Part shown: in pieces, positions 3,661-54,274 of the stretch | Layout of the letters: each line of letters opens with the position of its first letter | Numbering within the stretch: the stretch's first letter is position 1 | Made by a program: the position numbers and the translations under genes | Assembly: GCA_029204225.1 (NCBI GenBank) | Contig: CM055108.1 | Location: 2,298,668 to 2,362,667 of the forward strand | Direction of reading: 5' to 3' | Length of the DNA stretch: 64,000 nucleotides | From: Diphasiastrum complanatum | Lineage: Eukaryota > Streptophyta > Lycopodiopsida > Lycopodiales > Lycopodiaceae | Notes under the pieces: model-generated | Database searches by the model: none | What the model was told of the DNA's origin: nothing | Seen by the model: only the letters and a program-made list of their open reading frames with translations

Positions 3661-4118
3661 AAAAGGTACATGTCAAGTATGCACAATAGGAGCGTAAAAG
3701 CTCAAACATCTACAGAAACAATAACTGCTAAAAAAAAAAAAGCCAAAAGATGGCCAGCAAAGTCACAGTCCATCATCATGATAAAGTAGATGTCCCTCCA
3801 CCAGTAAAATAATGGTGTATAGTATGCTGTGAAACTGTCACTGGACGGCGGGCTGCAGAGATCTGTCTCTGAGTGAACTGTCGGTGTCATCTCTGCTGCT
3901 GTGGAGCTGTGGGCTGTGGCCTATGGACTGGTCGTCTCTCTGGGTGTCTACACTGTCTATATGCAAATAAAGAGAGTGGAGATTCAGTATTTGTGGTTGT
4001 GTTATGTGAATGTTGATTCCAGTTTTGATTCTTACGTTGGTAATAATCAGATAAGCACACTCACTAATAAACCACAAGAAGCTTCATTTACTTTTGCATC
4101 CCCTAGTGCACATGCATT

Positions 4119-5250
4119 AAGACAGCCTTCCGAACCCGTTTCGGTCATTATGAATTTTTGGTTATGCCATTTGGGTTAACTAATGCCCCAGCCACGTTCA
4201 TGATGCTCATGAACGATGTCTTGCGAGACTATATGGTTAAGTTTGTCGTCAATTTTATTGACAATATATTGGTTTTTAGTAAAGCGGTCGAGGAGCATGG
4301 GTTTCATCTCAAGACCGTATTGGGCAAGTTACAAGCTTCTGTCTTGTGTGCCAATGCTCAGAAGACAGAGTTGTGTAAGACTCGTGTCGAGTATTTGGGT
4401 CACGTAGTGACAGTTGAGGGTATTTCCGTTGACCCAGCCAAGGTGGTTGTGGTTAAGAAGTGGCTGAGGCTTGCCGATATATGCCAATTACAATCTTTCT
4501 TAAGTTTTTGCCGCAAGTGGCTGAGTTGTTTATTCAGAATATTGTCAGGTTACATGGTCTTTTGAAGTCCATAGTTTCTGACAGGGATCCCAAGTTTACG
4601 GGAAATTTCTGGATTGAGGTGTTCGCCAAGCTGGGAACACAGTTGCGGATGAGTAGCTCTGAGCATCCTCAGACGGATGGTCAGACAGAGCGAGTGAATC
4701 AGATCTTGGAAGATATGCTTAGGGCATATGTGAGTAGTATGCAAACAGACTGGGTAAAGCATTTACCGCTATTGGAGTTCGCGTACAGTGATAAGAGACA
4801 TGCGTCCACTGGATTGAGTCCATTTGAGCTCAATTATGGTTTCAGGCCACTGAGTCTTGCATTGATAAGGATTCCGCATAGGGTACCTAGTGCTATAGGT
4901 TTTTGGCTCAGATGCAGCAGAAGCTAGAGTTGGCATGAGATAACTACGCACAGGAAAGTGCGCCAAGTTATCTCCTAGGTATTGTGGACCATGGTTGATT
5001 AGTAGGAAGGTGAGCCAAGTAGCTTATAAGCTACAGCTACCTGTGGGATGCAAGGTGCATCCAGTATTCCATGTTAGCAAACTGAAGAGATGTTTGCACG
5101 ATGGCGATAGCCTGGTGGAATCGTCTCCTTCAAGAGTATCTAGTAACCTGGAAAGGGCATCCGTTGTCAGATGCTACCTGGGAGATGCGACAGGCATTGC
5201 AGAAGTCTTACCCAAAGTTTGCCATCGAGGACCGATGACTTGCCAGAGGA
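4119..5250 (+). pseudogene. Second Ty3/gypsy pol remnant with an internal deletion (G2)
   Basis: It starts inside RT (KTAFRTRFGHYEF, then LVMPFGLTNAP). The palm motif reads FIDNILVFS, so the second catalytic aspartate is asparagine. At about 4460-4510 the sequence jumps from the end of RT to the integrase core (SIVSDRDPKFTGNFW, then HPQTDGQTERVNQ), so RNase H and the integrase zinc finger are gone. A further break near 4920-4990 precedes the C-terminal domain (SQVAYKLQLPVGCKVHP, VFHVSKLKR). It is related to G1 but a different copy, in the same orientation. Confidence 0.9.
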
Positions 5251-12102: not shown

Positions 12103-12815
12103 CATTTGGAATCAACTAAAATGGTCTAGGAATACAGTCCACAGGTTCGTGATCCCGATACGAACTTAAGGGATCGAGCCTGGCTCGATTCGGGTATCGT
12201 TCAGTCAAAATGGCCCTTCGACGGGAGAGAAACGCAATTAGGTCTAGCGAAATGGACTAGTTTTGCAGCTTTTTGTCTGACGGCCCCGTTCATCCAAACA
12301 GGGTCCGTTTTAGGTGCCATCTGTTTCGGCCAATGGACAACCTTGATAGGAACCTGTCGAAACAGACAAGATGAGGAACGGACCGACGGTCAGCCTAGAA
12401 CATCCGTCCGAAGTTTGACGTTGAACAAGGCTTCAGGGACACTTTGTGGGATGGGAACTGAAAACATTTGGAATCGACCAAAATGGTCCAAGAATACAGT
12501 CCATAGGTTCATGATCCCCATACAAACCAAAGGGATCGAGCCCAGCTCAATTCGGGTATCATTCGATCAAAATGGCCCTTCGACGGGAGAGAAACGCAAT
12601 TAGACCAAGCGTAATGGACTGATTTTGCAACTTTCCGTCTGACGGCCCCGTTTCTCCAAACGGGATCCGTTTCAAGTGCCGTCTATTTCAGCCAGTGAAC
12701 AACCTCGATAGAATCCTGTCGGAACAGACAAGACGAGGAACGGACCGACGGCCGGCCCAAAACGTCCGTCCGAAGTTTGACGTTAAACAGGGCTTTAGAG
12801 ACACTTCGTCCGTTC
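12103..12815 (+). repeat. Two tandem copies of a 362-bp unit
   Basis: catttggaatc opens both copies (12103 and 12465). Shared blocks include aatggcccttcgacgggaga, ggaacggaccgacgg and gtccgaagtttgacgtt. The copies differ mainly by transitions. There is no coding match. The unit lies inside the hAT element. Confidence 0.85.
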
Positions 12816-16720: not shown

Positions 16721-17075
16721 ATTACCCTTTGTGTTACTTCTCTTACTATCTCATTGCAATCAATTTTTGCATATGGTTCAACTGATCTAGAAAATTCAAG
16801 ATTTACTCAAGATGATCACATATATTCATAGGTCAATAATTAACCTCAAATCAAGGCTAGCATTGAGTTGCTAATTCATTGGTATCTCATTTGTGTATGT
16901 ACTTTCTGCAACACTAGGCTGTGTAAAGAAAACTGGCCCCACCTGTCACATCCACACACACATACTGGGGTCCCTACAGCAAGTCGCATAGCCACTTCCT
17001 ATCATCTGACACCAAAGCTACCAGGGGAGAGGATGTAGCGATACTTAAACTTTTTATGGAGGCAGTTTCATGTTC
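16721..17075 (+). repeat. Left arm of a 355-bp inverted repeat
   Basis: Nearly identical to the reverse complement of 26254-26608. The match runs from about accctttgtgttacttctc to ggaggcagtttcatgttc, with only a few differences. It lies just upstream (minus sense) of the RSH-like exon. There is no coding content or terminal inverted repeat of its own. Confidence 0.9.
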
Positions 17076-20294: not shown

Positions 20295-21540
20295 GTCTGG
20301 AAGAGAGACCAGCAATAACAAGATCAAGTGAGGTATGATAAGAGGACCAAAAAGGCTCTACACATGATAAAGATGAATGTTACCAATGAGCTTCTCAAGG
20401 AAGCTGGTAAGAGTACTTCATCAATGGATGCTTGGGATTCATTGAAGAAGCTTTATGAATCCAAGTCTACTTCTAGAGTGTTGACTCTAAGAAGGCAAAT
20501 TTTTTCCTCTTTGCAAAATAACAAAGAAAGTCTAAATACTTTTGTTTTGAGAATGAAAGCATTGAATGATGAGTTGGCTTGCATTGATGAGAGCATCAAG
20601 GAAGGAGAGCTTGTTCAAGTTATTCTTAATGGATTGTTGAATGCTCATGCTAACATTGTTCAAAGTCTTGCTATTCAAAAGACTTTGCCAAGTTTGATTG
20701 ATCTTCAAGAGATTTTGATCAATGAAGAATACAATCTTCAAGCAAGAGGTGGATCTTTATCAACATCTCAAGTTGGAGAGGAGGCTATGTTCATCAAGCG
20801 CAAATTCAAGGGGAAAAGCAAAAGTAAGTGGTCTAAAGGCCAAGATCAAGGGGAGGCTTCTTCAAATGGCAAAAAGAAAGATAGATTAAAGCTCAAGTGC
20901 TTCTATTGTGGCATCAAAGAACACTTTGCAAGTGACTGCTACAATAAGAAGAGAGATCAAGGAGACAAGCAAGGTAATCTTACTCTTGATGAGGATGGTT
21001 TGGTTGTTCAAGATACAAATGATTATGCTTTTGTGATGCCGTCATGTATGCTTGTCAATGATGGAGATCTAGATCCATGGTGGATTGTTAGTGGAGCAAG
21101 TTCACAAATGACTTTTCACAAAGAGTACTTCACTTCTTTGTTGTCATATGGAGATGACAAGAGGGCGCCTACGACAAATGATGGTGAGTGTGCAATCAAA
21201 GGGATTGGCACAATTCCTATTTCTCTCTCTACAAATAGGAATGTTCATTTGGAGGATGTTTTGTTCATTCCATGTATTACCAAGAGTTTTCTTAGTGTGA
21301 GTCAGTTGCTAAGTAAAGGCCTCAAAGTTGAGTTTGATGGAGATGCTTGTATGATCAAAAGGAATGATATCTTCATTGCAAAAGGTAAAAGGCAAGGGAA
21401 ATTGTTCAAACTAGATGCTTGTGTTATTCCTAAACAAGTTGGATGTGTTGCAAGAGAGCAAATACCTATTCAAGAGGTTTGGCATTTTGTGAATCTTGTG
21501 CTTTGTGGAAGTCACATAGACTACCTTATACTAGATATTT
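20295..21540 (+). pseudogene. Ty1/copia gag and protease remnant
   Basis: Gag is copia type, with KKALHMIKMNVTNELLKEAG and ESKSTSRVLTLRRQIFSS, a basic stretch and the zinc knuckle CFYCGIKEHFASDC (C-x2-C-x4-H-x4-C). The protease region follows: WWIVSGASSQMTFHKEYF, where the catalytic aspartate of the usual DSGAS is valine, then DVLFIPCITKSFLSVSQLL. The 5' end of Gag is missing and out of frame before 20328. At about 21485 a deletion joins VWH to the end of the pre-integrase domain. It is closely related to the gag of element C1 at 46656. It is inactive because the protease active site and the rest of pol are lost. Confidence 0.88.
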
Positions 21541-21679
21541 TGAGGCATCAGTGTGAACATGAAATTCAATCGTCCAATCTGAAGCATGCAATATTTGTGC
21601 CGAAGCTAATGTTTTTTTTTAGTTTTTCAAAGGCTTTTAACTACCAATGTTCCAGGTAGAATGAGTGTTTTAGGGTCTG

Positions 21680-26253: not shown

Positions 26254-26608
26254 GAACATGAAACTGCCTCCATAAAAAGTTTAAGTATCGCTACATCCTC
26301 TCCCCTGGTAGCTTTGGTGTCAGATGATAGGAAGTGGCTATGCGACTTGCTGTAGGGACCCCAGTATGTGTGTGTGCATGTGACAGGTGGGGCCAGTTTT
26401 CTTTACACAGCCTAGTGTTGCAGAAAGTACATACACAAATGAGATACCAATGAATTAGCAACTCAATTCTAGCCTTGCTGTGAGGTTAATAATTGACCTA
26501 TGAATATATGTGATCATCTTGAGTAAATCTTGAATTTTCTAGATCAGTTGAACCATATGCAAAAATTGATTGCAATGAGATAGTAAGAGAAGTAACACAA
26601 AGGATAAT
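26254..26608 (-). repeat. Right arm of the 355-bp inverted repeat
   Basis: Reverse complement of 16721-17075 with only a few differences. It abuts a copia gag fragment. Confidence 0.9.
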
Positions 26609-32774: not shown

Positions 32775-33429
32775 TGTGAAAAAAGTGGATCTTGAATGGA
32801 TCCAAACTCCCAAAATACTTGGCTAAGATCTTTGCACAACAAGCTACAAAAGCTAGAAATGGCAAAGCATCATAATGCTACCTTTGATACACATGAACTT
32901 GACAAAGCATTCAAGAGACAAAAGAGACTAATAAAAGGTACTAATGGTAGCCAAAAATAGCAGAAAATAGGGCTCTCAATAACAGCCTACCACTTTTGGA
33001 AACCTCTTAAGATCATACACAAAAGCTTGAAGACAATACACAAAGCAATGCTCTCAATGGAGGAAGAAACTGTGACAATGATCTATTGATCTCTCTCAAC
33101 AATACAATAAGGTTCTCCAACCTGTTCTCTATGAATTTCAGCCTAATATAGGTGAGAGAGATGACTCTCTCTCCTCTCTCTAGAACTTAGGACCCAATTT
33201 TAGGACACCAGTAGCCTAAAATAGCCAATTTTGGCCTATATGTCCAAATAACATGATTTTGGTGTCATTTCAAAGGTCCTGAAGTTTGAGACTTCTTCAA
33301 TATGAAATATATACTAAAATAGAAGTATCTAGGCCTCTTGCACACGTGTGAAAGGCTATATCCAAAACTATGTACAAAAATTGCCAATTTAGGCCTCAAA
33401 CTAGCTAGGAAATGTCGACAATTTTCACA
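32775..33429 (-). repeat. 3' LTR of gag-ORFX element E2
   Basis: In minus sense it starts TGTGAAAATTGTCGAC directly after the polypurine tract gaagagggag and ends TTTTTTCACA. It aligns end to end with the E1 LTRs (647 bp), with many differences, including the shared CACACGTGTG palindrome (33341-33350) and the ctctctc/gagagag-rich block before the TATA region. It is much older than E1. Confidence 0.85.
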
Positions 33430-33442
33430 CTCCCTCTTCAAC

Positions 33443-34477
33443 TTAACTTGCTAGTTTTATAACACTACTTTGCTCCAATCTAAGAATGATCTCCATCATG
33501 ATAATATATCTCTTCTCAAGTGTTCTTATATGTACAATATGAAGTACAACATAATTGTTATAGTCCATATAAGATGCTTCACTATTTTTTACATCAATTT
33601 TACATAGAATGGTGAACAAGATAAATGTAAAAGAACATAGAATCATAATGAAAGGATTCCTCCATGTATCCACCTTTGAATTCTCTGTAAAACAGCAACA
33701 AACAAGTTGTAAGTGAAAGTAACCAACAAGTGTTTGCATGCCTCCTCCACATTCCACTATGCCCATAATGCATGTACCATGTATCTCCATGAATGAACCT
33801 CCATCACCACCTTGCCTTTGTAGATCTCCAATCCATGAAAGCTCTTGAGTGAATGAATGCCAAAATGATGTGTTATCTATTTCATTTGAATGAGCAAAAC
33901 CTAAACTTGAAATACTTGAAGTATCTCCACAAAATTTGCATACAACCCTTGATCCTACATTGTCAACAATTTGCCAATTTGCCACCATTAGGATGCTAGA
34001 TCTTGAACTTTGCTCAAAAGCAAACATGTTGACCACTTCAGTATCTTTCAAGATCTGAATGAAGGCATGTAGTTGATCATAAAAACCAACAATGATAACT
34101 ATTCCATCTCCAAGATCCAAAGGATGCAAAACTATGGAACTAGTTCCATTGAATTTTGACAGTTCCAACACATTGACATGACAATGTTCATACATGAGAC
34201 TAAACAAGTAAGGTAGAGTAAAAGGACACTTCCTTGCTGCTCCAAGAACCTTATTTGAACCTTCAAGAACCTGTAAAAACAGATCCAAAATTCTTTGCCC
34301 ATGTGGCTCCCCTTTGATGCTTTTGACTAGCTTCCAATTGCTACTTGCCTCTTGGTATTGATGAAGCAATTCAAGATCAAAATCTTGATCCTCCAACAAA
34401 ACATCAAGGACTTTGCATTTATAAGCATCTTCAGATCTGAACCTTTGAAGATACTCCCTTTCAAACACATGATTAAC
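33443..34477 (-). pseudogene. ORFX of E2, C-terminal part (displaced by inversion)
   Basis: An open frame of 341 codons runs from FEREYLQRFRSED to SSVIKLAS, then the polypurine tract and LTR. It aligns almost without gaps to the last third of the E1 protein, with roughly three quarters of residues identical by eye. Most differences are substitutions rather than stops. The protein has no domain I recognise. Hydrophobic stretches near the C-terminus (ILCSFTFILFTILCKI) are shared with E1. It resumes directly after the GTTAA target duplication of element Q; the missing N-terminal part is at 38466-41440 on the plus strand. Confidence 0.85.
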
Positions 34478-38466: not shown

Positions 38467-38980
38467 GATTTGACAAGCTAGTGAAGCTAGTCTTGTGATT
38501 CACTAAGTGTGCTCTTTCATTTACCTCTAAAGCTTGTATTTATCATTTGCTGGAGTTTATAAACTTTTAGAAGTGTGGTTTTACAAGTTGAATCAATATC
38601 TTAGTGTGTTGATCATATGTTGATCAAGTTTGTTGAATTCTAGGTATTTTTGGCAGCCTAGTCTTGTGTATTTTCCAAGAATACAAGTAACTCTTTACAT
38701 CATAACTTGATTTGGTCACTTGCTAGAAAGTTTGAGAGATTAAGCAAGAGTGCGTTCAGGTTGGTTTGAGTTTGTAATCCATTTTTAGTGTGTGTAAAGT
38801 GTTGCATGTGTTTCAATCTTCCTTTCTATGCTTGGAAACCAGCCAGGTTCAAGATAAAAGTGTTTTAGGGTCCTAGATCTTCTGAGATCTCCTTATCCAT
38901 CATTTGTTGAGAGAAAAGTGGATGCTAGATGCATTAAGATAGAGCCTAAAAGTTGAAGAATCATTATATTCAAGGCTTCC
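38466..38980 (+). other. 5' leader of E2 (truncated, no 5' LTR)
   Basis: It aligns along its length to the E1 leader at 49485-49980 (for example gatcatatgttgatcaagtt). The E2 5' LTR and primer site are missing. The join to gypsy DNA has the microhomology gatttgacaag. Confidence 0.75.
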
Positions 38981-40464
38981 AATGGTGGGATCATGCTAGA
39001 AACTAATAATAGGTTGAGTTCATCAAACTACTCTACCTGGAAAGTAAGGATGGAGTCTTTACTTGAGTTGAATGAACTCATGGACATAGTTGCAGGAACT
39101 GAAGAGAGACCACCCACATTTCAAGAGCAACAAAGTTTTGATAAGAAGGCCAAAAGGGCTCTTTATATCATTAACATGAATATTACCAATGAACTTCTCA
39201 AGGAAGTTGGTAAGTGTCAAAGTGCAAGTGAGGCATGGAATGCCTTGAAAAAACTCTTTGAATCAAAGTCCACACCTAGGTTATTGATCTTGAGGAGGCA
39301 AACATTTTCTAGTAGACAAAGAGAGGGAGAAAGTGCTCATGCATTTGTCTTGAGGGTTAAGTCCTTAAGTGATGATCTAGCATGCATTGATGAAAGCATA
39401 AAAGTTGGTGAAATAGTCCAGTTTATGTTGAATGGTTTGCTAGATGAGCTTGTTAACCTTGTGCAAAGTTTTGCCATTCAAAGAGCCTTGCCAAGTGTGG
39501 TTGATTTGCAAGAAATCTTATTGGCTGAAGAACATAGGTTGCAATCAAAGCTTGATGGTGCATCCTTGCAAGGTGGAGGTGAAGAGGCTTTTTTCATAAA
39601 AGAAAAACTCATAGGCAAAGGTAAAGGCAAAGGGAAATGGTCCAAAGGTGGTAACTCGGATCATGATGATCACTCTTCCTCCTCCTCTTCTACTTCTTTT
39701 AAAAAGAAAGATAAGTCAAAGTTCAAGTGCTTTTATTGTGGGATAAAAGGTCATTTTGCAAATGAATGTCATAAGAAGCAAAGTAATGAAGGTAGCAAGC
39801 AAAATAACTTTTGTACTTCTAATGAGGATCTAGATTCTTATGATTCTCTCATGATGTGTTCTTCAAGTCTAATGTCAAGTGGAAGTGACAAGGATTCATG
39901 GTGGATAGATAGTGGATCTAGTTAACACATGACTAGTCACAAGGAGTTCTTTACTTCTTTGATCTCTTATGTTGGAACCAAGAAAGTGGTTCACATGCCA
40001 AATGGTGGTGAGTGTATGATCAAAGGTATTGGCTCAATTCCTATTTGTCTTTCTACTAATAGGAATGCAAGGCTTGATGGTGTTCTTTACAGTCCTTCAC
40101 TTTCAAGGAATTTGCTAAGTGTTGGTCAAATGTTAAAGAAAGGGTACAAGACAAAGTTTGTTGGGGAGGTTTGCTTCATTACTAAGGGAGATGTCTTGAT
40201 TGCTAGGGGCAATAGACAAGGTAGACTTTACAAGCTTGATGCATTTGTTATGTCTAACAAGAGGAATGAAATGGATGTTGGTGGTTCTCTCAACTTTCAA
40301 AAGCCAATTCCTAGCATCAATAAGATTGGTAGATCTTATGCAAAGTCTAAAGAGCTTCCTTATGCTAGATCTAGGTTGAGATCTAATGAGATTCTTGGAG
40401 ATAGTTATTGTTGTGCTAACTTGGCAACTTTTGGTAAATCTATGATCAATGTCATGTGGTGCTA
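38981..40464 (+). pseudogene. gag and protease of E2
   Basis: Copia Gag: SNYSTWKVRMESLLELNELM, ALYIINMNITNELLKEVGKC, zinc knuckle CFYCGIKGHFANEC at about 39728-39769. A protease region follows: WWIDSGSS, a TAA stop (39923-39925), then HMTSHKEFFTSLI, GECMIKGIGSIPICLS and NLLSVGQMLKKG. It runs on through a pre-integrase-like end (KSKELPYARSRLRSN) to NCC/YCCANLATFGKSM. The start codon used in E1 is lost (atg reads aag), so the first ATG is at 38993. E1 lacks the protease block between the knuckle and ARSRLRSN, so E2 shows the longer ancestral layout. A small deletion near 40452 shifts the frame into ORFX. Confidence 0.85.
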
Positions 40465-41435
40465 AATTAGTATCATGTTTGAACTCTTCTACTCATAGAT
40501 TTCCACGTCTTGGTGGCTCTTCAATGGAACTACATGGCAAGTGCAAAAATGGAAAAGGTAAGAAGAGATATAACTTCATCAATGGAGGTGATGAGAACTC
40601 CTCTTTGAAAATGGTTGTTGCTAATGACTTAGCTACTCATTTGGAAAAAGATGGTGCTTTGAGCATGTTTGAAGAAAAAGTTTCTTTTGCATCTTTATGT
40701 GATGAGTCCAAGAAATTCATTTGTGCAACAAGTGGTGTCACATGTATTCATAAAGAAAGTAGATCAAAAGGTTCTATCATGAGACTTGGTGAAGATCTCA
40801 AGTCAAAAGGGAGAGATGAATGTGAAGTGTTCAAAGTAGGATGTACTTTGAATGATGCTTTTGTGAATGATAGTGAGGGTTCATTATCATTACCTATATC
40901 ATTGATTAGAAGTCTAGGTTTGACAAGAAAATGTACTTCAATCATTCTTATGCTGAAGGTACTATGTATTCTTTTCATGGCTTCTAATGTTCGAGATTCT
41001 TCCATTTCTTATGATGCAACTATCAAGTGGAAGGTTGCTGACTTTTGTGGTGTTATCATTAAGAGGGAGTCTTGTGAAGGAAAGAGCAAAGGAAGAGTGA
41101 CTCTTCAAGGCATGGATCTTATATCTCTTCATCAACTCAAAGGATGCTATGATTGTGGTGGAGTGTTCATGCATGATCAAGATGACAAAAGGTTGGATGA
41201 AGAAGACTGCATGGAGCAACTCAAGTGGCAATTTCTTCAAGGCAAGGAAGATCTCATTGAGGTTTGGTTTGAGCTCAAATGGTCTGGTTTGATCAGGTTT
41301 GATACTCAACTTCATCTACTCTACTTCATGTTGGATAGAATTGTAAAAATCTATCTTTTGGTTTATGATGGTGACATTGTTTTCACTAACTATAGTGAAA
41401 GGTTGAAATCAAGCAATGATGAGATCTTGTGGGAT
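40455..41435 (+). pseudogene. ORFX of E2, N-terminal part
   Basis: A long open frame matches E1 ORFX: SCGAKLVSCLNSSTHRFPRL, FKVGCTLNDAFVNDSEGSLS, GMDLISLHQLKGCYDCGGVF, EEDCMEQLKWQFLQGK and IRFDTQLHLLYFML. The palm-like motif reads IYLLVYDGDIVFTNYS (catalytic YVDD in active copia RT; here YDGD, 41364-41375). It stops at the Q insertion, ...WDVK. A block present in E1 (HSLQEDGCSSNSF...) is missing. This copy is old, yet almost free of stops. Confidence 0.8.
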
Positions 41436-41440
41436 GTTAA
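41436..41440 (+). repeat. Target duplication of Q (GTTAA)
   Basis: The same five bases, reverse-complemented, lie at 34473-34477 at the other end of Q. E2 ORFX breaks at this point in both places. Confidence 0.7.
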
Positions 41441-41714
41441 GTTAAAATTAAAGTTAGAATCACTGTGTGACTGTAAGTGGGTCTTGTCAGTGGATAAGGA
41501 TCAGTTGGCCTCGCCACGAGGCAAGTCGACAGGACACGCGTCCCGCCAACGGCAACCTGGGTCATGCACGGGTTGCCTGAGTGAACAACTATATGTACAG
41601 TGTAATTTCATTTTGAGAAATACAGTTGCTATGTGAGCTTGCTGAGGAGAGTAATTTTCTGTCTGTGTTATTGTGTAGCATGATCTGTGTTCCTGTGCAA
41701 AGCAAATTCTAAGT
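41441..41714 (+). repeat. 5' LTR of copia element Q
   Basis: It matches the 34478-34752 LTR at about 95%. It starts gttaaaattaaag and ends attctaagt just before a primer binding site. It contains an imperfect hairpin near ggcctcgccacgaggc. Confidence 0.8.
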
Positions 41715-41727
41715 TGGTATCAGAGCC
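41715..41727 (+). other. Primer binding site of Q (initiator tRNA-Met)
   Basis: tggtatcagagcc is complementary to the 3' end of plant initiator tRNA-Met and directly follows the LTR. Confidence 0.85.
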
Positions 41728-46655: not shown

Positions 46656-48165
46656 ATGGCAACCTCAATTGGAGTCATGTTGGAAGCCAATGATAGGCTT
46701 ACCTCAAGTAACTATTCATTGTGGAAAGTGAGGATGGAGTCACTTCTTGAGATGAATGATGTTTTGGATATTGTTGTAGGTTTGGAGGAGAGACCAACAA
46801 CACAACAAGATCAAATGAGGTATGACAAGAGGGCCAAGAAGGCTTTACACATGATAAAGATGAATGTTACCAATGAACTTCTCAAGGAAGTTGGTAAGTG
46901 CACATCATCTTTGGAAGCTTGGAATTTAATGAAGAAGCTTTATGAATCCAAGTCTAATTCTAGAGTGTTGACTCTAAGAAGGAAAATATTTTCTTGTTTG
47001 CAAAAGAATGAAGAAATTCCAAGTATGTTTGTTTTGAGAATGAAAGCATTGAATGATGAGTTGGCTTGCATTGATGAAAGCATTAAGGAAGGAGAGCTTA
47101 TTCAAGTAATTCTTAATGGCATGTTGGATGCTCATGCTAACATTGTTCAAAGTATTACTATTCAAAAGACTTTGCGAAGCTTGATGGATCTTCAAGAGAT
47201 CTTGATCAATGAGGAATATAGGCCTCAAGCAAGAGGTGGATCTACATCGACACTTCAAGAGGATGCTATGTTCACAAAGGGCAAATTCAAGGGCAAAACC
47301 AAAAGTAAGTGGTCTAACGGGCAAGATCAAGTGGATGCTTCTTCAAGTAGCAAAAAGAAGGATAGATTAAAGCTCAAGTGCTTCTATTGTGGCATCAAAG
47401 GACACTTTGGAAGTGAGTGCTACAAGAAGAAGAGAGATCAAGGAGACAAGCAAGGTAATCTTACTCTTGATGAGGATGGTTTGGATGTTCAAGATGCAAA
47501 TGATGATGCTTTTGTGATGTCTTCATGTATGCTTGCTAATGATGGAGATATAGATCCTTAGTGGATTGATAGTGGAGCAAGTTCACACATGACCTTTCAA
47601 AAGAGTACTTCACTTCTTTGTTGGCATATGGAGATGACAAGAGGGTGATCTACACGGCCAATGATGGTGAGTGTGCAATCAAAGGGATTGGCACAATTCC
47701 TATTGCTCTCTCTACAAATAGGAATGTTCATTTGGAGGATGTCTTGTCTATTCCATCTATTACCAAGAATTTGCTTAGTGTGAGCCAAATGTTAAGTAAA
47801 GGCCTCAAGATGGAGTTTGATGGAGATGCTTGTTTGCTCAAAAGGAAGTATGTCTTGATTGGAAAAGGTAAAAGGCAAGGGAAGTTATTCAAACTAGATC
47901 CATGTGTTATTGCTAACCAAGTTGGATGTGTTGCAAGGGAGCAAATTTCTATTCAAGTGGTTTAGCACAAAAGGATGGGACACCTCAGCTTCAAGTCATT
48001 GGAGGTAATGGCAAGGAAGAAGGTTGTGATTGGTCTTCCAAGTTTGTTAAGTGATGTCAAGCATGTTTGTGAGTCTTGTGCTTTGTCAAATTCACATAGA
48101 CTACCTTATACTAGATCTATATCTAGATCTACAAAGCCTTTTCAACTTGTACATTTGGATATTTG
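46656..48165 (+). pseudogene. gag, protease and pre-integrase of copia C1
   Basis: ATG at 46656 opens Gag (MATSIGVMLEANDRLTSSNY), with MNVTNELLKEVGKCTSSLEA and zinc knuckle CFYCGIKGHFGSEC. A TAG replaces the first tryptophan of WWIDSGASSHM (about 47560). After it the protease continues with a frame change (FQKSTSLL..., then GECAIKGIGTIPIALS, NLLSVSQMLSKG). A further stop (near 47964) precedes the pre-integrase part (RMGHLSFKSLEVMARK, CESCALSNSHRLPYTRS, STKPFQLVHLDI). Here E1 has inserted; the integrase resumes at 53750. C1 is related to the copia at 20295. Confidence 0.9.
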
Positions 48166-48170
48166 ATGGA
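48166..48170 (+). repeat. Left target duplication of E1 (ATGGA)
   Basis: Identical to 53745-53749 directly beyond the 3' LTR. Confidence 0.9.
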
Positions 48171-48817
48171 TGTGAAAATTGTCAACATTTCCTTGTCTAG
48201 TTTTAGGCCAAAATTGCTAAAAATGGCACATAGTTTAGGATCTGACTTTTCACACGTGTGAAAAAGGTCTAGATATTTTTAGTAAGTGTATTTTTTCAGT
48301 ATGAAGAAGTGTCAAACTTCAAGACCTTCGAAATGAGTCCATTTTCATGTATTTTGGACATATATGCCAATTTTACCTATATAGGGCATATTTTAGGTAA
48401 GGAGGGTCTAGAGAGAGGAGAGAGAGTCATCTCTCTCAGCTATATATAGCAGGTAGGCCGTGGAGAAACAGGTTGGAGCAGATCCATTGTATTCATTTGC
48501 TTAATGAGAGATTTTTCTATTGGGTTCTCCTTCCATTGTTGGCATTGTGTAGTGATTGAGTTCAAGCTTTGTGTGTATGATCTTAGGTGCTTTCCAAAAG
48601 TGATAGGCTGATGTATTATGGACTGTATAATGCTATTTTGGGGCGCACTTGATGTTTATGGAAGTTTCCATTTGTGATAAATGCTTTTTGATCAAGTTCT
48701 TTGCATTCTAGGTAGCATAGAATGTGTTGCCAATTCCTAGCTTATGTAGTTTGGAGTGCAAGCATTCAAGCCAATGATCTTGGAGTTTAGATCCACTTAG
48801 GATCTGTATTTTTCACA
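48171..48817 (+). repeat. 5' LTR of E1
   Basis: Contains the 18-bp perfect palindrome TTTTCACACGTGTGAAAA (48247-48264, G-box core) and a TATA-like ctatatatagc (48440-48450) after a CT/GA-rich block. Transcription would start shortly after it (inference). Confidence 0.92.
48247..48264. promoter_or_regulatory. 18-bp palindrome with G-box (CACGTG) in the E1 LTR
   Basis: A perfect palindrome, repeated in the 3' LTR (53174-53191). The central CACACGTGTG is also kept in the diverged E2 LTR and the LTR at 30805. G-boxes bind bZIP and bHLH factors; a role here is inferred. Confidence 0.55.
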
Positions 48818-48830
48818 TGGTATCAGAGCT
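48818..48830 (+). other. Primer binding site of E1 (initiator tRNA-Met)
   Basis: tggtatcagagct directly follows the LTR end CA. Confidence 0.85.
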
Positions 48831-49991
48831 GGTTGGCTTCTATTCATAGTAAGTATTCCATTTTTGGTGATATTTGGATGTTTGATCAAGTTCTAGCATG
48901 ATTTTGCATTGCTTTGTTGATCAAATCTTACTAACCTTTGTTTTGTGAGTTGAACTTGTGGATCAAAAGCATATTTCAGGTCTATTGAAGATCAGAGGCT
49001 GAAAAGAAACTATTTTGGATCAGATCATAACACCTAATCATTTGTTGATTGTGAGGCTTGTGCATATTCAATACTAACAATGTTCTTTTCAATCCTATTG
49101 TTGACAATCTCCATTCTTGGATGAACACTCTCCTTAAGTGGATGAAACTTCTCCTTAAGTGGATGACAAATGCTCTTTTGAGTGAGTTGTAATTCTCCTA
49201 AAGGCTGAGCAAAGCTCCCATTTGGATGAAAGATCCCCTTTTTTGGGTGAACATATTGTAAGCTCCATTGTGAAGAGCATATTGTAAAGATTGTCATCAA
49301 TTTTGGCATAAATTTTGGTGTACTTTGTTGAGCATGTAAGTAACTCTCCTTATGTAATTTGATTGGAGCATTTGCTGGAAGGTGTTAACCATTATGCAAG
49401 TGTGTTTTCAGGTTCTTAACAGGTTGAGGAACATTCTCATGTGAAGTGATCTTAGATCTACATCTAAACACCAAGATTTGACAAGATAGTGAAGCTAGTC
49501 TTGTGATTCACTAAGTGTGCTCATTCATTCACCTCTAAATCTTGTATTTATCACTTGCTGGAGTTTATAAACTTTTAGAAGTGTGGTTTACATGTGGTTT
49601 TACAGGTTGAATCAATATCTTAGTGTGTTGATCATATGTTGATCAAGTTTGTTCATTACTAGGTAATCTTGGCATCCTAGTTTTGGGTATTTTCTAAGAA
49701 TGCAAGTAACTCTTCACACCATAACTTGATTTGGTCACTTGCTGGAAAGTTTGAGAGCTTAAGCAAGAGTGTGTTCAGGTTGGTTTGAGTTTGTAATCCA
49801 TTCTTAGTGTGTGCAAAGTGTTGCATGTGTTTCAATCTTCCTTTCTATGCTTGAAAGCCAAATAGTTTCAAGATAGAGGTCATTTAGGGTTCTAAATCTT
49901 TTAAGATATTCTCCTTCTTCATTTATTGAGAGAAAGGAGAGTGCTAGGTGCATTAGAACAGAGCCTAAGGACACAAGAAGATTTTAGCATC
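48831..49991 (+). other. Untranslated leader of E1
   Basis: No substantial plus-strand frame. From 49485 it aligns with the E2 leader (38466). Short repeats of ctccttaagtggatga occur near 49130-49170. Confidence 0.7.
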
Positions 49992-52900
49992 ATGACATCC
50001 AATGGTGGAATCATGTTGGAAGCTAAAGAGAGGTTAAACTCTACAAACTATTCAACTTGGAAAGTGAGGATGGAGTCTTTACTAGAGTTGAATGAGCTAA
50101 TGGATATAGTTGCAGAAATTGAAGAGAGACCTCTCACACTTCAAGAGCAACAAAGGTTTGATAAGAAGGCCAAAAGGGCTCTTCATATCATTAAAATGAA
50201 TGTTACAAATGAACTTCTCAAGGAAGTTGGAAAGTGTCAAAGTGCAAGTGAGGCATGGAATGCCTTAAAGAAGCTCTTTGAATCAAAGTCCACATCTAGG
50301 GTATTGACCCTAAGGAGACAAATATTTTCTAGTAGGCAAAGAGAGGGTGAAAGTGCTCATGCATTTATCTTGAGAGTTAAGTCCCTAAGTGATGATTTAG
50401 CATGCATTGATGAGAACATAAAAGATGGTGAAATAGTCCAAGTTATGTTGAATGGTTTGCTAAATGAACATGCTAACCTTGTGCAAAGTTTTGCCATTCA
50501 AAGAGTCTTGCCAAGTGTGGTTGACTTGCAAGAAATCTTATTGGCTGAAGAACATAGGTTGCAATCAAAGCTTGATGGTGCATCCTTGCAAGGTGGAGGT
50601 GAAGAGGCTTTCTTCACAAAAGGCAAATTCAAGGGCAAAGGTAAAGGCAAAGGGAAATGGTCCAAAGGTGGTAACTTTGATCATGATGATCACTCTTCCT
50701 CTTCCTCTTCTACTAAGAACAATAAGTCAAAGTTCAAGTGCTTTTATTGTGGGATAAAAGGACATTTTGCAAATGAATGCCATAAGAAACAAAATGCTAG
50801 ATCTAGGTTGAGATCTAATGTACTTTTTGGAGATGATAATTGTTGTGCTAACTTGGCAAGCTTTGGTGAATCTATGGTCAATTTTTTGGATCCATTGGAT
50901 CTTGAAGATGCACTAGTGTTACCTACTAGTCATATGGAGTCATGTGGAGCTAAATTAGCATCATGTTTGTACTCTTCTACTCATGGACTTCCAAGGCTTG
51001 TTGGTTCTTCAATGGTGCTAGATGGCAAGTGCAAAAATGGAAAAGGTAAGGAAGGAGCTAACTTCATCAATGGAGTTGATGAAGATTCTTCTTTGGAAGT
51101 GATTGTTGCTAATGACTTGTTTGTTCATATGGAAAAAGATGGAGATGCTAAGTGTCATTCTTTGCAAGAAGATGGTTGTTCTTCTAATTCTTTTCATATT
51201 GATGTATGTAATCATGTGGGAAAAGATGATGGTGCTTTGAGCATGCTTGAAGGAAATGGTTCTTTTACATCTTTTTGTGATAAAGTCATTTGTGCAACAA
51301 GTGGTGTCACATTTCTTCATAAAAAGAGTAGATCAAAGGTTTCTATCATGAGACTTGGTGAGGGAGATCACAAGTCAAAAGGAAGAGAAGTATGTGAAGT
51401 GTTCAAAGTAGGATGTACTTTGAATGATGTTTTTATGAACGATAGTGAGGAAGAATCATTATCATATGACTCATTACCTAAATCATTGAGTAGAAGTTCA
51501 TGTTTGAAAAGAGAGAGTACTTCAATCACTCTTATGTTGAAGGTACTAAGGATTCTTTTCTTGGCTTCTAATATTCAAGAGTCTTCTACTTCTTATGGTG
51601 CAACTATCAAGAGGGAGGTTTCTAACTTTTGTGGTGCTAGCATTAAGAGGGAGTCTTGTGAAGGAAAGGGCAATGGAAGAGTGGTTCTTGGGAAGATTCA
51701 AAGCATGGATCTAACATCTCTTCATCAACTCAAAGCATTCTATGATTGTGGTGGATTGTTCATTCATGGTCAAGATGGCAAAAGGTTGGTTGAAGAAGAC
51801 TACATGGAGCAACTCAAGTGGCAACTTCTTCAAGGCAAGGGAGATATCATTGGTGAGCTTATTGAGGTTTGTTATGAACTCAAGAGGGCTGTTTTGATTA
51901 GGTTTGATACTCATCTTCACCTACTCTACTTCATGTTAAATGGAAATGTTGGAATCTATCTTTTGGTTTATGATGGTGGCATTGTTTTCACTAACTATAG
52001 TGAAGGGTCAAATTTGAGCATTGATGAGATCTTGTGGGATCTTAATCATGTGTTTGAGAGGGAGTATCTTCAGAGTTTCAGATCTGAAGATGTTCACATA
52101 TGCAAGATCTTTGATGTCTTATTGGAAGATCAAGAGGTTGATCTTGGATTGCTTCATCAACACCAAGAGACAAGTGGCAATTCGAAGCTAGTGAAAAGCA
52201 TCAAAGAAGAGACAAATGGTCAAGGCATTTTGGATCTGTTTTTACAGGTTCTTGAAGGTTCAAGTAAGGTCTTTGGAGCTGCAAGGAAGTGTCTTCTTAC
52301 TCTACCTCACTTGCCTAATCTCATGTATGAACATTGTTATGTCAATGTGTTGAAATTGTCAAATTTCAATAAAACTAGTTCCATAGTTTTGCATCCTTTG
52401 GATCTTGGAGATGGAATAGTTATCATTGCTGGTTTGTATGATCAAGTACATGAATTCATTCAGATCTTGAAAGGTATTGAAGTGGTCAATATGTTTTCTT
52501 TTGAACAAAGTTCAAGATCTAGTATTCTAGTGTTGGCAAATTGGCAACTTGTTGACATTGTAGGATCAAGCGTTGTGTGCAAATCTTGTGGAGGTACTTC
52601 AAGTATTTCAAGTTCAGGTTTTGGTCATTCAAATGGAGTAGGGAACACATCTTTTTGGCATTCATTCACTCAAAGGCTTTCATGGATTGAAGATCTACAA
52701 AGGCAAGGTGGTGATGGAAGTTCATTCATGGAGATACATGTTGCATTCACTATATGTATAGTGAAATGTGGAGGAGGCATGCAAACACTTGTTGATCACT
52801 TTCATTTACAACTTGTTTGCTGCTATTTTACAGAGAAACCAGAGATGGATACATGGAGGAATTCATTAATTGAGATTCTATGTTCTTTTACATGTACCAT

Positions 52901-53084
52901 TTTTATGATTCTATGTAAAATTGATGTAAGAAATAGTGAAGCATCCTATATGGACACTATTATCTATATCAATTATGTTGTGTCCTATTTTGTACATATT
53001 AGGATCCTTGAGAAGAGATCTATTCTGATTATGGAGATCATTCTTAAGTTGGAACAAAGTAGTGTTGTAAAACTAGCAAGTTAA
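49992..53084 (+). CDS. Gag-ORFX fusion protein of E1 (1,030 codons)
   Basis: The ATG at 49992 (MTSNGGIMLEAKERLNSTNY) is preferred over an in-frame ATG at 49926 because it matches the Gag start of C1. Residues 1-230 are copia Gag; the zinc knuckle CFYCGIKGHFANEC is at 250-263. The frame then runs, without protease or integrase, into about 760 residues (ORFX). Around residues 560-680 these follow copia RT order: MDLTSLHQLK, FIHGQDGK, EEDYMEQ (601-607), EVCYELKRA, RFDTHLHLLYFML and IYLLVYDGGIVFTNYS. The catalytic YVDD is YDGG (660-663), and LYGLKQAPR is absent, so polymerase activity is ruled out. The last 300 residues are unrecognised, with hydrophobic segments near 957-977 and a stop 13 bp before the 3' LTR. 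Gag should form the particle; the role of ORFX is unknown. Confidence 0.88.
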   Translation: MTSNGGIMLEAKERLNSTNYSTWKVRMESLLELNELMDIVAEIEERPLTLQEQQRFDKKAKRALHIIKMNVTNELLKEVGKCQSASEAWNALKKLFESKSTSRVLTLRRQIFSSRQREGESAHAFILRVKSLSDDLACIDENIKDGEIVQVMLNGLLNEHANLVQSFAIQRVLPSVVDLQEILLAEEHRLQSKLDGASLQGGGEEAFFTKGKFKGKGKGKGKWSKGGNFDHDDHSSSSSSTKNNKSKFKCFYCGIKGHFANECHKKQNARSRLRSNVLFGDDNCCANLASFGESMVNFLDPLDLEDALVLPTSHMESCGAKLASCLYSSTHGLPRLVGSSMVLDGKCKNGKGKEGANFINGVDEDSSLEVIVANDLFVHMEKDGDAKCHSLQEDGCSSNSFHIDVCNHVGKDDGALSMLEGNGSFTSFCDKVICATSGVTFLHKKSRSKVSIMRLGEGDHKSKGREVCEVFKVGCTLNDVFMNDSEEESLSYDSLPKSLSRSSCLKRESTSITLMLKVLRILFLASNIQESSTSYGATIKREVSNFCGASIKRESCEGKGNGRVVLGKIQSMDLTSLHQLKAFYDCGGLFIHGQDGKRLVEEDYMEQLKWQLLQGKGDIIGELIEVCYELKRAVLIRFDTHLHLLYFMLNGNVGIYLLVYDGGIVFTNYSEGSNLSIDEILWDLNHVFEREYLQSFRSEDVHICKIFDVLLEDQEVDLGLLHQHQETSGNSKLVKSIKEETNGQGILDLFLQVLEGSSKVFGAARKCLLTLPHLPNLMYEHCYVNVLKLSNFNKTSSIVLHPLDLGDGIVIIAGLYDQVHEFIQILKGIEVVNMFSFEQSSRSSILVLANWQLVDIVGSSVVCKSCGGTSSISSSGFGHSNGVGNTSFWHSFTQRLSWIEDLQRQGGDGSSFMEIHVAFTICIVKCGGGMQTLVDHFHLQLVCCYFTEKPEMDTWRNSLIEILCSFTCTIFMILCKIDVRNSEASYMDTIIYINYVVSYFVHIRILEKRSILIMEIILKLEQSSVVKLAS

Positions 53085-53097
53085 GTTGAAGAGGGAG
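53085..53097 (+). other. Polypurine tract of E1
   Basis: gttgaagagggag lies between the stop codon and the 3' LTR. E2 has the same tract on the minus strand at 33430-33442. Confidence 0.8.
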
Positions 53098-53744
53098 TGT
53101 GAAAATTGTCAACATTTCCTTGTCTAGTTTTAGGCCAAAATTGCTAAAAATGGCACATAGTTTAGGATCTGACTTTTCACACGTGTGAAAAAGGTCTAGA
53201 TATTTTTAGTAAGTGTATTTTTTCAGTATGAAGAAGTGTCAAACTTCAAGACCTTCGAAATGAGTCCATTTTCATGTATTTTGGACATATATGCCAATTT
53301 TACCTATATAGGGCATATTTTAGGTAAGGAGGGTCTAGAGAGAGGAGAGAGAGTCATCTCTCTCAGCTATATATAGCAGGTAGGCCGTGGAGAAACAGGT
53401 TGGAGCAGATCCATTGTATTCATTTGCTTAATGAGAGATTTTTCTATTGGGTTCTCCTTCCATTGTTGGCATTGTGTAGTGATTGAGTTCAAGCTTTGTG
53501 TGTATGATCTTAGGTGCTTTCCAAAAGTGATAGGCTGATGTATTATGGACTGTATAATGCTATTTTGGGCCGCACTTGATGTTTATGGAAGTTTCCATTT
53601 GTGATAAATGCTTTTTGATCAAGTTCTTTGCATTCTAGGTAGCATAGAATGTGTTGCCAATTCCTAGCTTATGTAGTTTGGAGTGCAAGCATTCAAGCCA
53701 ATGATCTTGGAGTTTAGATCCACTTAGGATCTGTATTTTTCACA
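53098..53744 (+). repeat. 3' LTR of E1
   Basis: 647 bp, identical by eye to the 5' LTR except one G/C difference (gggccgcactt here, ggggcgcactt at 48649-48660). Confidence 0.92.
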
Positions 53745-53749
53745 ATGGA
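53745..53749 (+). repeat. Right target duplication of E1 (ATGGA)
   Basis: Matches 48166-48170; C1 integrase sequence continues from here. Confidence 0.9.
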
Positions 53750-54096
53750 TTTACTACAATTGGCAATAGTGGAGCTAAGATGTATGTAGCATTCATTGAT
53801 GATTTTAGTAGATTTTGTTGGGTCTATCTACTAAAGAGCAAGGATGAAGTGTATCATGTCTTTATCAAGTTCAAGAATGCAATGGAGAACCAATTTCCCA
53901 CAAAGATCAAGTGCTTCAGAGATGACAATGGTGGTGAGTACATATCTAACAAGTTCAAGGCCTTTTGTGATGAGCAGGGGATCAAGAGGGAGTATACAAC
54001 ATCAAGGACCCCACAACAAAATGGAGTGGTTGAAAGGAAGAATAGGACTTTATGTGAAAGTGTTAAAGCTATGAGGTTAAGTGCTAATCTTGACAG
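53750..54096 (+). pseudogene. Integrase core of copia C1
   Basis: The translation reads TTIGNSGAKMYVAFIDDFSR, then FCWVYLLKSKDEVYHVF, CFRDDNGGEYISNKFKAFCD and REYTTSRTPQQNGVVERKNR. This is the D-D-E catalytic core of a copia integrase, with the first two aspartates and the glutamate present. It continues C1 after the E1 insertion. At about 54096 it is cut and joined to the C1 3' LTR, so the integrase end, RT and RNase H are deleted. Confidence 0.9.
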
Positions 54097-54274
54097 ATTT
54101 TGCTATATTTCCATATTTGGCATATTGGGACCAAAACTTGTTTTAGACTTAGAGGTTGACTTTTCAAAGTTCATTAGTATAAAATTCATTTGAATAAACA
54201 CTTTTTCAAAGTGTGGGAAAGTTAGAATGCGAGTTTGAGTAGATTCAAATTTGAATAATTGGGTACATTGAATC
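54097..54274 (+). repeat. Truncated 3' LTR of C1
   Basis: It matches 45432-45613 (ttttgctatacttccatattt region onward) with a few differences. Both ends are missing. Confidence 0.8.

Follow-up and report, generated by a model that had tools for sequence, protein, structure and literature searches.

A complete Ty1/copia-type retroelement lies on the forward strand at 48171..53744 of a 64,000-nucleotide stretch of the genome of Diphasiastrum complanatum (contig CM055108.1; the whole stretch is called here the window), and its interior is almost filled by a single frame of 1,030 codons, in which residues 1-270 correspond to Gag and residues 271-1030, which we call ORFX, are fused to it. Comparison of this element (A) with an older relative (B) in the same window suggests that ORFX is selected as an open frame, whereas the protein that it encodes is selected hardly or not at all; we infer this as the simplest reading of the numbers presented below. 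We think, tentatively and with somewhat less than even confidence, that the element is a trans-mobilised, gag-only copia whose ORFX shields the RNA by staying translatable to its end.

The tests of selection use a single pair of lineages, A and B, with 2,010 aligned ORFX nucleotides and 251 differences; residues 300-316, which are mostly absent from B, and 31 codons before a break in B's frame were left out of the tests on stops, on amino-acid changes and on conservativeness. ORFX has gained no in-frame stop, although the observed substitution spectrum predicts 10.8, and none of 1,000 simulations was free of stops. The other two forward frames have gained 11 stops (+1, 13.3 expected) and 14 stops (+2, 15.9 expected), that is, close to the neutral rate, which indicates that the control is calibrated there. 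Apart from cancelling pairs (1/1 and 2/2), eight of the nine insertions or deletions (indels) in ORFX are multiples of three. The amino acids, by contrast, have changed 171 times where 170.4 changes (standard deviation, sd, 11.4) are expected with stops as the sole prohibition, the replacements show no excess of conservative exchanges over chance, and in the long ORFX pieces the differences are spread evenly across codon positions. Gag is under constraint between A and B: the same stop-only test gives 32 changes against 48.5 (sd 6.3), and omega (the ratio of nonsynonymous to synonymous rates) is 0.21 in Gag, whereas the long pieces of ORFX have 0.86 and 0.66 and the 31-codon piece 0.96. The test finds constraint in a second Gag comparison as well, with 108 changes against 159.3 (sd 8.1). 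Taken together, the lack of stops and a number of amino-acid changes at the stop-only expectation argue for a selected open frame and not for a constrained enzyme. A first-pass annotation of this DNA had proposed that about 760 extra residues were kept fused to Gag; it is the frame that has been kept, while the residues drift. The idea that the frame is open merely by virtue of the youth of the copies is rejected on the missing stops of the A-B comparison.

Under the reading that we favour, selection on ORFX would bear on translatability to the end and not on a particular protein. A stop codon beside the purine tract would keep the 3' untranslated region (UTR) short, at 13 bases plus whatever part of the LTR (long terminal repeat) precedes the poly(A) site; were translation to end with Gag instead, the 3' UTR would be longer by about 2.3 kb and prone to the nonsense-mediated decay (NMD) of plants. 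ORFX would in this manner shield an RNA that serves both as Gag messenger and as genome. In its strictest form the proposal makes ORFX a 760-codon stop-free filler, in which selection would act only on the absence of stops and translation would protect the RNA from NMD or a similar surveillance; we consider this form possible, if rather doubtful. In plants NMD is indeed set off by long 3' UTRs, and it acts to restrict viruses (PMC12389679, citing Kertesz 2006 and Garcia 2014; this and the other papers identified by PMC numbers are cited for the excerpts available). Silencing of the copia element EVADE in Arabidopsis operates via translation of its gag message (PMC8892269), so that the mode of translation of an element's RNA may matter in other ways too.

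Several points weigh against this reading. The evidence for selection comes from one pair of lineages, and one of the reverse frames is short of stops as well (1 against 7.3 expected, P 0.004; the other two gained 6 against 7.6 and 13 against 10.4). The remaining indel, of 56 bp, breaks the frame of B near 40446, and B has a stop in its Pol_BBD region; we take both as damage after insertion. Omega values below 1 in both long ORFX pieces are compatible with weak constraint, and apparent neutrality can also result when purifying selection is mixed with diversifying selection. Asp is kept at 30 of 33 positions (23.2 expected, P 0.0055) and Gln at 22 of 23 (P 0.035), the only two of the 20 residues kept beyond expectation at P <0.05, in a test uncorrected for 20 residues. 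Finally, the link to NMD, including the use of NMD by the host in such a way, is conjectural, and TR-GAG elements exist that have no such extension.

Some of these points are shared by the main rival, namely that ORFX is a functional, fast-evolving accessory protein fused to Gag (a silencing antagonist or a membrane-active protein, for example), partly diversifying, in which constrained and diversifying sites cancel each other and the average looks neutral. Such a protein would also be expected to avoid stops, and it would fit the excess retention of Asp and Gln, the wide range of omega in 60-codon blocks (0.31 to 3.67, with one block, which lacks synonymous changes, undefined) and the presence in both A and B of a hydrophobic stretch at residues 959-977. 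However, both the total of amino-acid changes and their conservativeness fit the stop-only rule, no domain was found in ORFX, and its structure model is uninformative; we therefore regard an accessory protein as a serious but rather unlikely explanation.

Judging by its domains, the Gag part (49992..50801; DUF4219, Retrotran_gag_2 and a CCHC zinc knuckle in Pfam) is an ordinary copia Gag. It matches PF14223 at E 1.1e-22, above the curated cut-off, and PF13961 at E 2.1e-6, with the zinc knuckle PF00098 at E 0.0035, below the curated cut-off. Pfam gave no pol domain in the 1,030-codon frame. ORFX itself (50802..53081) has no significant match in Pfam, in NCBIfam, which covers bacteria and archaea, or among PDB chains; its sole Pfam match, PF25017 at E 0.5, is below the cut-off and at chance level. 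In one protein search with residues 285-1030 none of 5,693 candidates reached E 0.01, which is weak evidence, the collection being perhaps poor in eukaryotes. Gag without pol, continued by some 760 residues free of any recognisable domain, is thus what the searches return, as first annotated. That ORFX is an ordinary host gene or a known pol domain, the database match that would have spoken against that annotation, is rejected, none of these searches having given a significant match. Structure prediction, also suggested there as a check, was run with three sequences and told us little (mean predicted local distance difference test score, pLDDT, 27.7; predicted template modelling score, pTM, 0.19). 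No RNA family was detected in the 64-kb window at Rfam thresholds. When 500 order-2 Markov sequences were generated from the non-Gag part of 760 codons, the longest open run in any of six frames had a mean of 101 codons and a maximum of 230, and ORFX as a chance open frame is rejected on this control. A derivation from the element's own leader or LTR is rejected too: only short matches were found, the best at E 0.042.

The proportion of guanine plus cytosine by codon position in ORFX (0.45/0.35/0.29) is like that of coding sequence, and codon preferences correlate with those of Gag at 0.83, a weak signal given that out-of-frame controls reach 0.64 and 0.77. Both observations would suit a captured host or foreign coding sequence, now decaying and open only since the family is young, and maize Bs1, which transduced host gene sequences, is cited as a case of such capture (PMC7264820). 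Unselected decay, however, should have produced about 11 stops between A and B, where none was gained, and no homologue was found in Pfam, NCBIfam, PDB or the one protein search, collections that may hold few eukaryotes; the source genome itself was not searched for a parent gene. We think that capture of this kind is improbable.

The origin of the layout can be approached through B, whose first half (end of the leader, Gag, a Pol_BBD stretch and the start of ORFX) lies at 38467..41440 on the forward strand, and whose second half (the rest of ORFX, purine tract and 3' LTR) lies at 32775..34476 on the reverse strand. Between A and B the identity is 71% for the LTRs and 83-87% for the aligned ORFX pieces. 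The two halves of B are separated by another copia, whose LTR copies at 41440-41719 and 34753-34474 stand in opposite orientation, and GTTAA occurs at both B junctions, consistent with a target duplication, which indicates that the halves were probably one element before this copia inserted, an inversion following. B has the order Gag, Pol_BBD (PF22936, E 3.6e-15), ORFX, purine tract, LTR; between Gag and ORFX we see no integrase or reverse transcriptase (RT), and only Pol_BBD is kept, directly after Gag. Directly before ORFX, B reads LPYARSRLRSN, similar to LPYTRSISRST in the copia that surrounds A, near 48100, and we take this to be the likely end of a pre-integrase region; Pfam gave no match to the pre-integrase domain in the frame of B. 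At the joint in A the bases match the gag tail of B on one side and its pre-ORFX stretch on the other, meeting at ATG. Together with the retention of Pol_BBD in B, this points to a deletion of the protease stretch, probably in the lineage of A only, with a B-like form being ancestral. A and B alike have their stop immediately ahead of the purine-tract stretch, and ORFX would appear to occupy the place of integrase, RT and RNase H. As to the proposal that pol has been replaced by a fused frame, the replacement was probably not achieved in one step, as B still has Pol_BBD between Gag and ORFX.

The scenario that we favour would run as follows. In an ancestor, ORFX would have come to stand behind the protease and pre-integrase region, replacing integrase, RT and RNase H, and a later in-frame deletion at an ATG microhomology would have removed the protease region. 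The element would now supply its own Gag, LTRs, primer site and purine tract, borrowing protease, integrase and RT in trans from an autonomous relative. A different history, in which an autonomous partner encodes ORFX downstream of pol, the element is an internal deletion and selection is exerted in the partner, would agree with where ORFX lies, immediately ahead of the purine tract, as additional ORFs (open reading frames) occur between pol and the 3' LTR in other plant elements (PMC7264820). However, no partner was seen, although no search aimed at one was made, B is already devoid of visible integrase or RT between Gag and ORFX, and deleted copies by themselves could show selection only if A and B had each arisen independently from autonomous elements; we hold this history to be very improbable. 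That ORFX is a mere packaging-length spacer, resembling the large retrotransposon derivatives (LARDs), with an openness that means nothing, is hardly credible, for although its amino acids do drift freely, the Gag frame avoids both stops and indels that would break it, while the other two forward frames show no avoidance of stops, which largely refutes it.

The open frame is not a peculiarity of one copy, the other outcome that would have told against the first-pass annotation. The source genome (1,744,706,496 bases in 5,176 contigs) was searched, and 45 of 124,282 first-look candidates were scored; these are the best-scoring copies, including the one in the window, so that they give a biased view of openness and a lower bound on copy number. 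The full frame (residues 1-1030) is stop-free in all 45. The copies of the family number 45 or more, with proteins about 99% identical, and 25 distinct frames occur among the best 30 of the 45. Twenty copies were retrieved with flanks; in 19 of them both LTRs are matched over essentially their full length, and the twentieth has a cut LTR. The LTR pairs of these 19 show 0-5 mismatches each (32 in total, 0.26%, at about 647 bp per pair), with gaps of 1, 18 and 6 bases in three of them; exact 5-bp target duplications flank 14 of the 19, and the first 14 bases of the primer site are shared by 18, a single change being found in the remaining one. The family has been recently mobile, and the description of the element as very young can be extended to the retrieved copies.

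The copy in the window carries a divergent patch covering the end of the leader and the first 38 codons (49854..50105, forward strand), with boundaries taken from comparison with one copy, L005. Differences from L005 cluster in this interval, with only three elsewhere in the frame and a few scattered in the leader before 49854; 29 other copies differ from the window copy at 22-23 positions within the frame's first 120 nt and at 3-7 in the other 2,970 nt. This patch is probably a recombinant stretch from another subfamily, which hints at two co-packaged RNAs, template switching between two such RNAs being the usual cause of recombinants of this sort. Elsewhere in the genome, at one place (L042 5801-5899 and L018 3-131), the end of a second ORFX frame directly adjoins the L042 copy; these are possibly two copies sharing one LTR, and their flanking duplications do not match. 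L018 additionally contains a piece of the start of Gag, 60% identical. A second match to part of the leader, 73% identical and situated within the leader, was seen in L008 (1175-1291), L016 (4800-4916), L037 (1638-1754) and L040 (4157-4273); L008 and L037 are one place and L016 and L040 another, so that two copies have this internal leader repeat.

All the structural parts named in the first-pass annotation were recovered. The LTRs, of 647 bp each, lie at 48171..48817 and 53098..53744, end in TGTGAA...TTCACA and differ at one site (LTR position 473); they are flanked by the target-site duplication ATGGA, at 48166..48170 and 53745..53749. TG...CA ends and a 5-bp duplication are hallmarks of Ty1/copia. 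Inside the LTR, a TATA-like stretch read from the sequence, TATATATAG (48441..48449, forward strand), is the probable promoter, with R probably starting soon downstream. Directly 3' of the 5' LTR is the primer binding site TGGTATCAGAGCTGGTT (48818..48834, forward strand; the primer site of the element reads TGGTATCAGAGC), which we take to fit the initiator tRNA-Met. The untranslated leader of 1,174 bp (48818..49991) leads to the single frame (49992..53084), which is uninterrupted well beyond the chance maximum given above and ends, 13 bp before the 3' LTR, with a TAA stop codon (53082..53084) found at the same place in B. The 13 bases that follow, GTTGAAGAGGGAG (53085..53097), contain the polypurine tract and are identical in B. 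On Gag, LTRs and relative B we file the element as a non-autonomous Ty1/copia derivative.

It is instructive to set this layout beside known systems. LARDs are not known to have a long frame, and BARE2 has a broken gag with pol kept. These elements are non-autonomous and moved in trans, as ours would be; ours has Gag without any pol domain found, and it is not a LARD, a class defined by the lack of inner coding capacity, since its 1,030-codon frame avoids stops. Maize Bs1 is reportedly an LTR element without RT in which one frame fuses Gag with recognisable host exons. It is a possible precedent, sharing, by this account, the lack of RT and the fusion of Gag to other coding sequence; it differs in that no homologue of ORFX was found in the collections searched, and in that ORFX belongs to a family of at least 45 nearly identical copies. 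BARE1 and BARE2 are mentioned in the available text of PMC8704663. TR-GAG elements, with LTRs and a single Gag frame, are able to transpose, as exemplified by AT5TE33540 of ATCOPIA63 in Arabidopsis (PMC8704663, PMC9784723), and we agree with the first-pass annotation that they are the right neighbours: the window element likewise has two LTRs around one Gag-containing frame, no pol, and mobility that probably relies on a relative's enzymes. It departs from what these excerpts describe in that only residues 1-270 are recognisable as Gag, and about three quarters of the frame, reaching the purine tract, is not. Grande, RIRE2, Retand and env-like plant LTR elements have additional ORFs between pol and the 3' LTR (PMC7264820), and thus resemble ours in that many copies have, close to the 3' LTR, a frame of obscure origin; according to the same excerpts they keep pol, and their frame is separate and often antisense, unlike ORFX, which lies in the sense direction as a continuation of Gag. 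Pol is likewise retained by bdelloid elements that have captured frames (PMC5408684, available part). The available part of PMC7264820 describes no pol-less element with a long Gag-fused frame, and literature searches, with subscription papers outside their coverage, found no gag-only copia extended in this way.

Other features of the window may be mentioned briefly. The element is inserted inside another copia, of which a Gag frame (46656-47561) and an integrase core, in the frame 53705-54193, can be seen. This Gag frame and that at 20319-21659 belong to another copia lineage, about 59% identical to the Gag of our element, and share 89% identity between themselves along 1.2 kb of DNA. At 530-1246 there is a frame with an RVT_1-type RT and RNase H, and at 4107-4565 one of similar appearance; these are probably two gypsy-like remains. 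An inverted pair of 355 bp, 98% identical, lies about 9 kb apart (16721-17075 and 26254-26608), and two adjoining direct repeats of 345 bp, 85% identical, are found at 12103-12447 and 12465-12809.

Even on a plain reading, the present element adds to the known diversity a copia layout that is gag-only and extended by a long fused frame. If the pattern holds in more lineages, it would be an example from nature, in many copies, of an open frame being conserved while its protein sequence is not. Were our proposal true, a frame that is open in all copies would be no proof of a functional protein, RNA surveillance would gain a visible role in shaping the anatomy of elements, and an explanation would be offered for frames of unknown function in plant retroelements.

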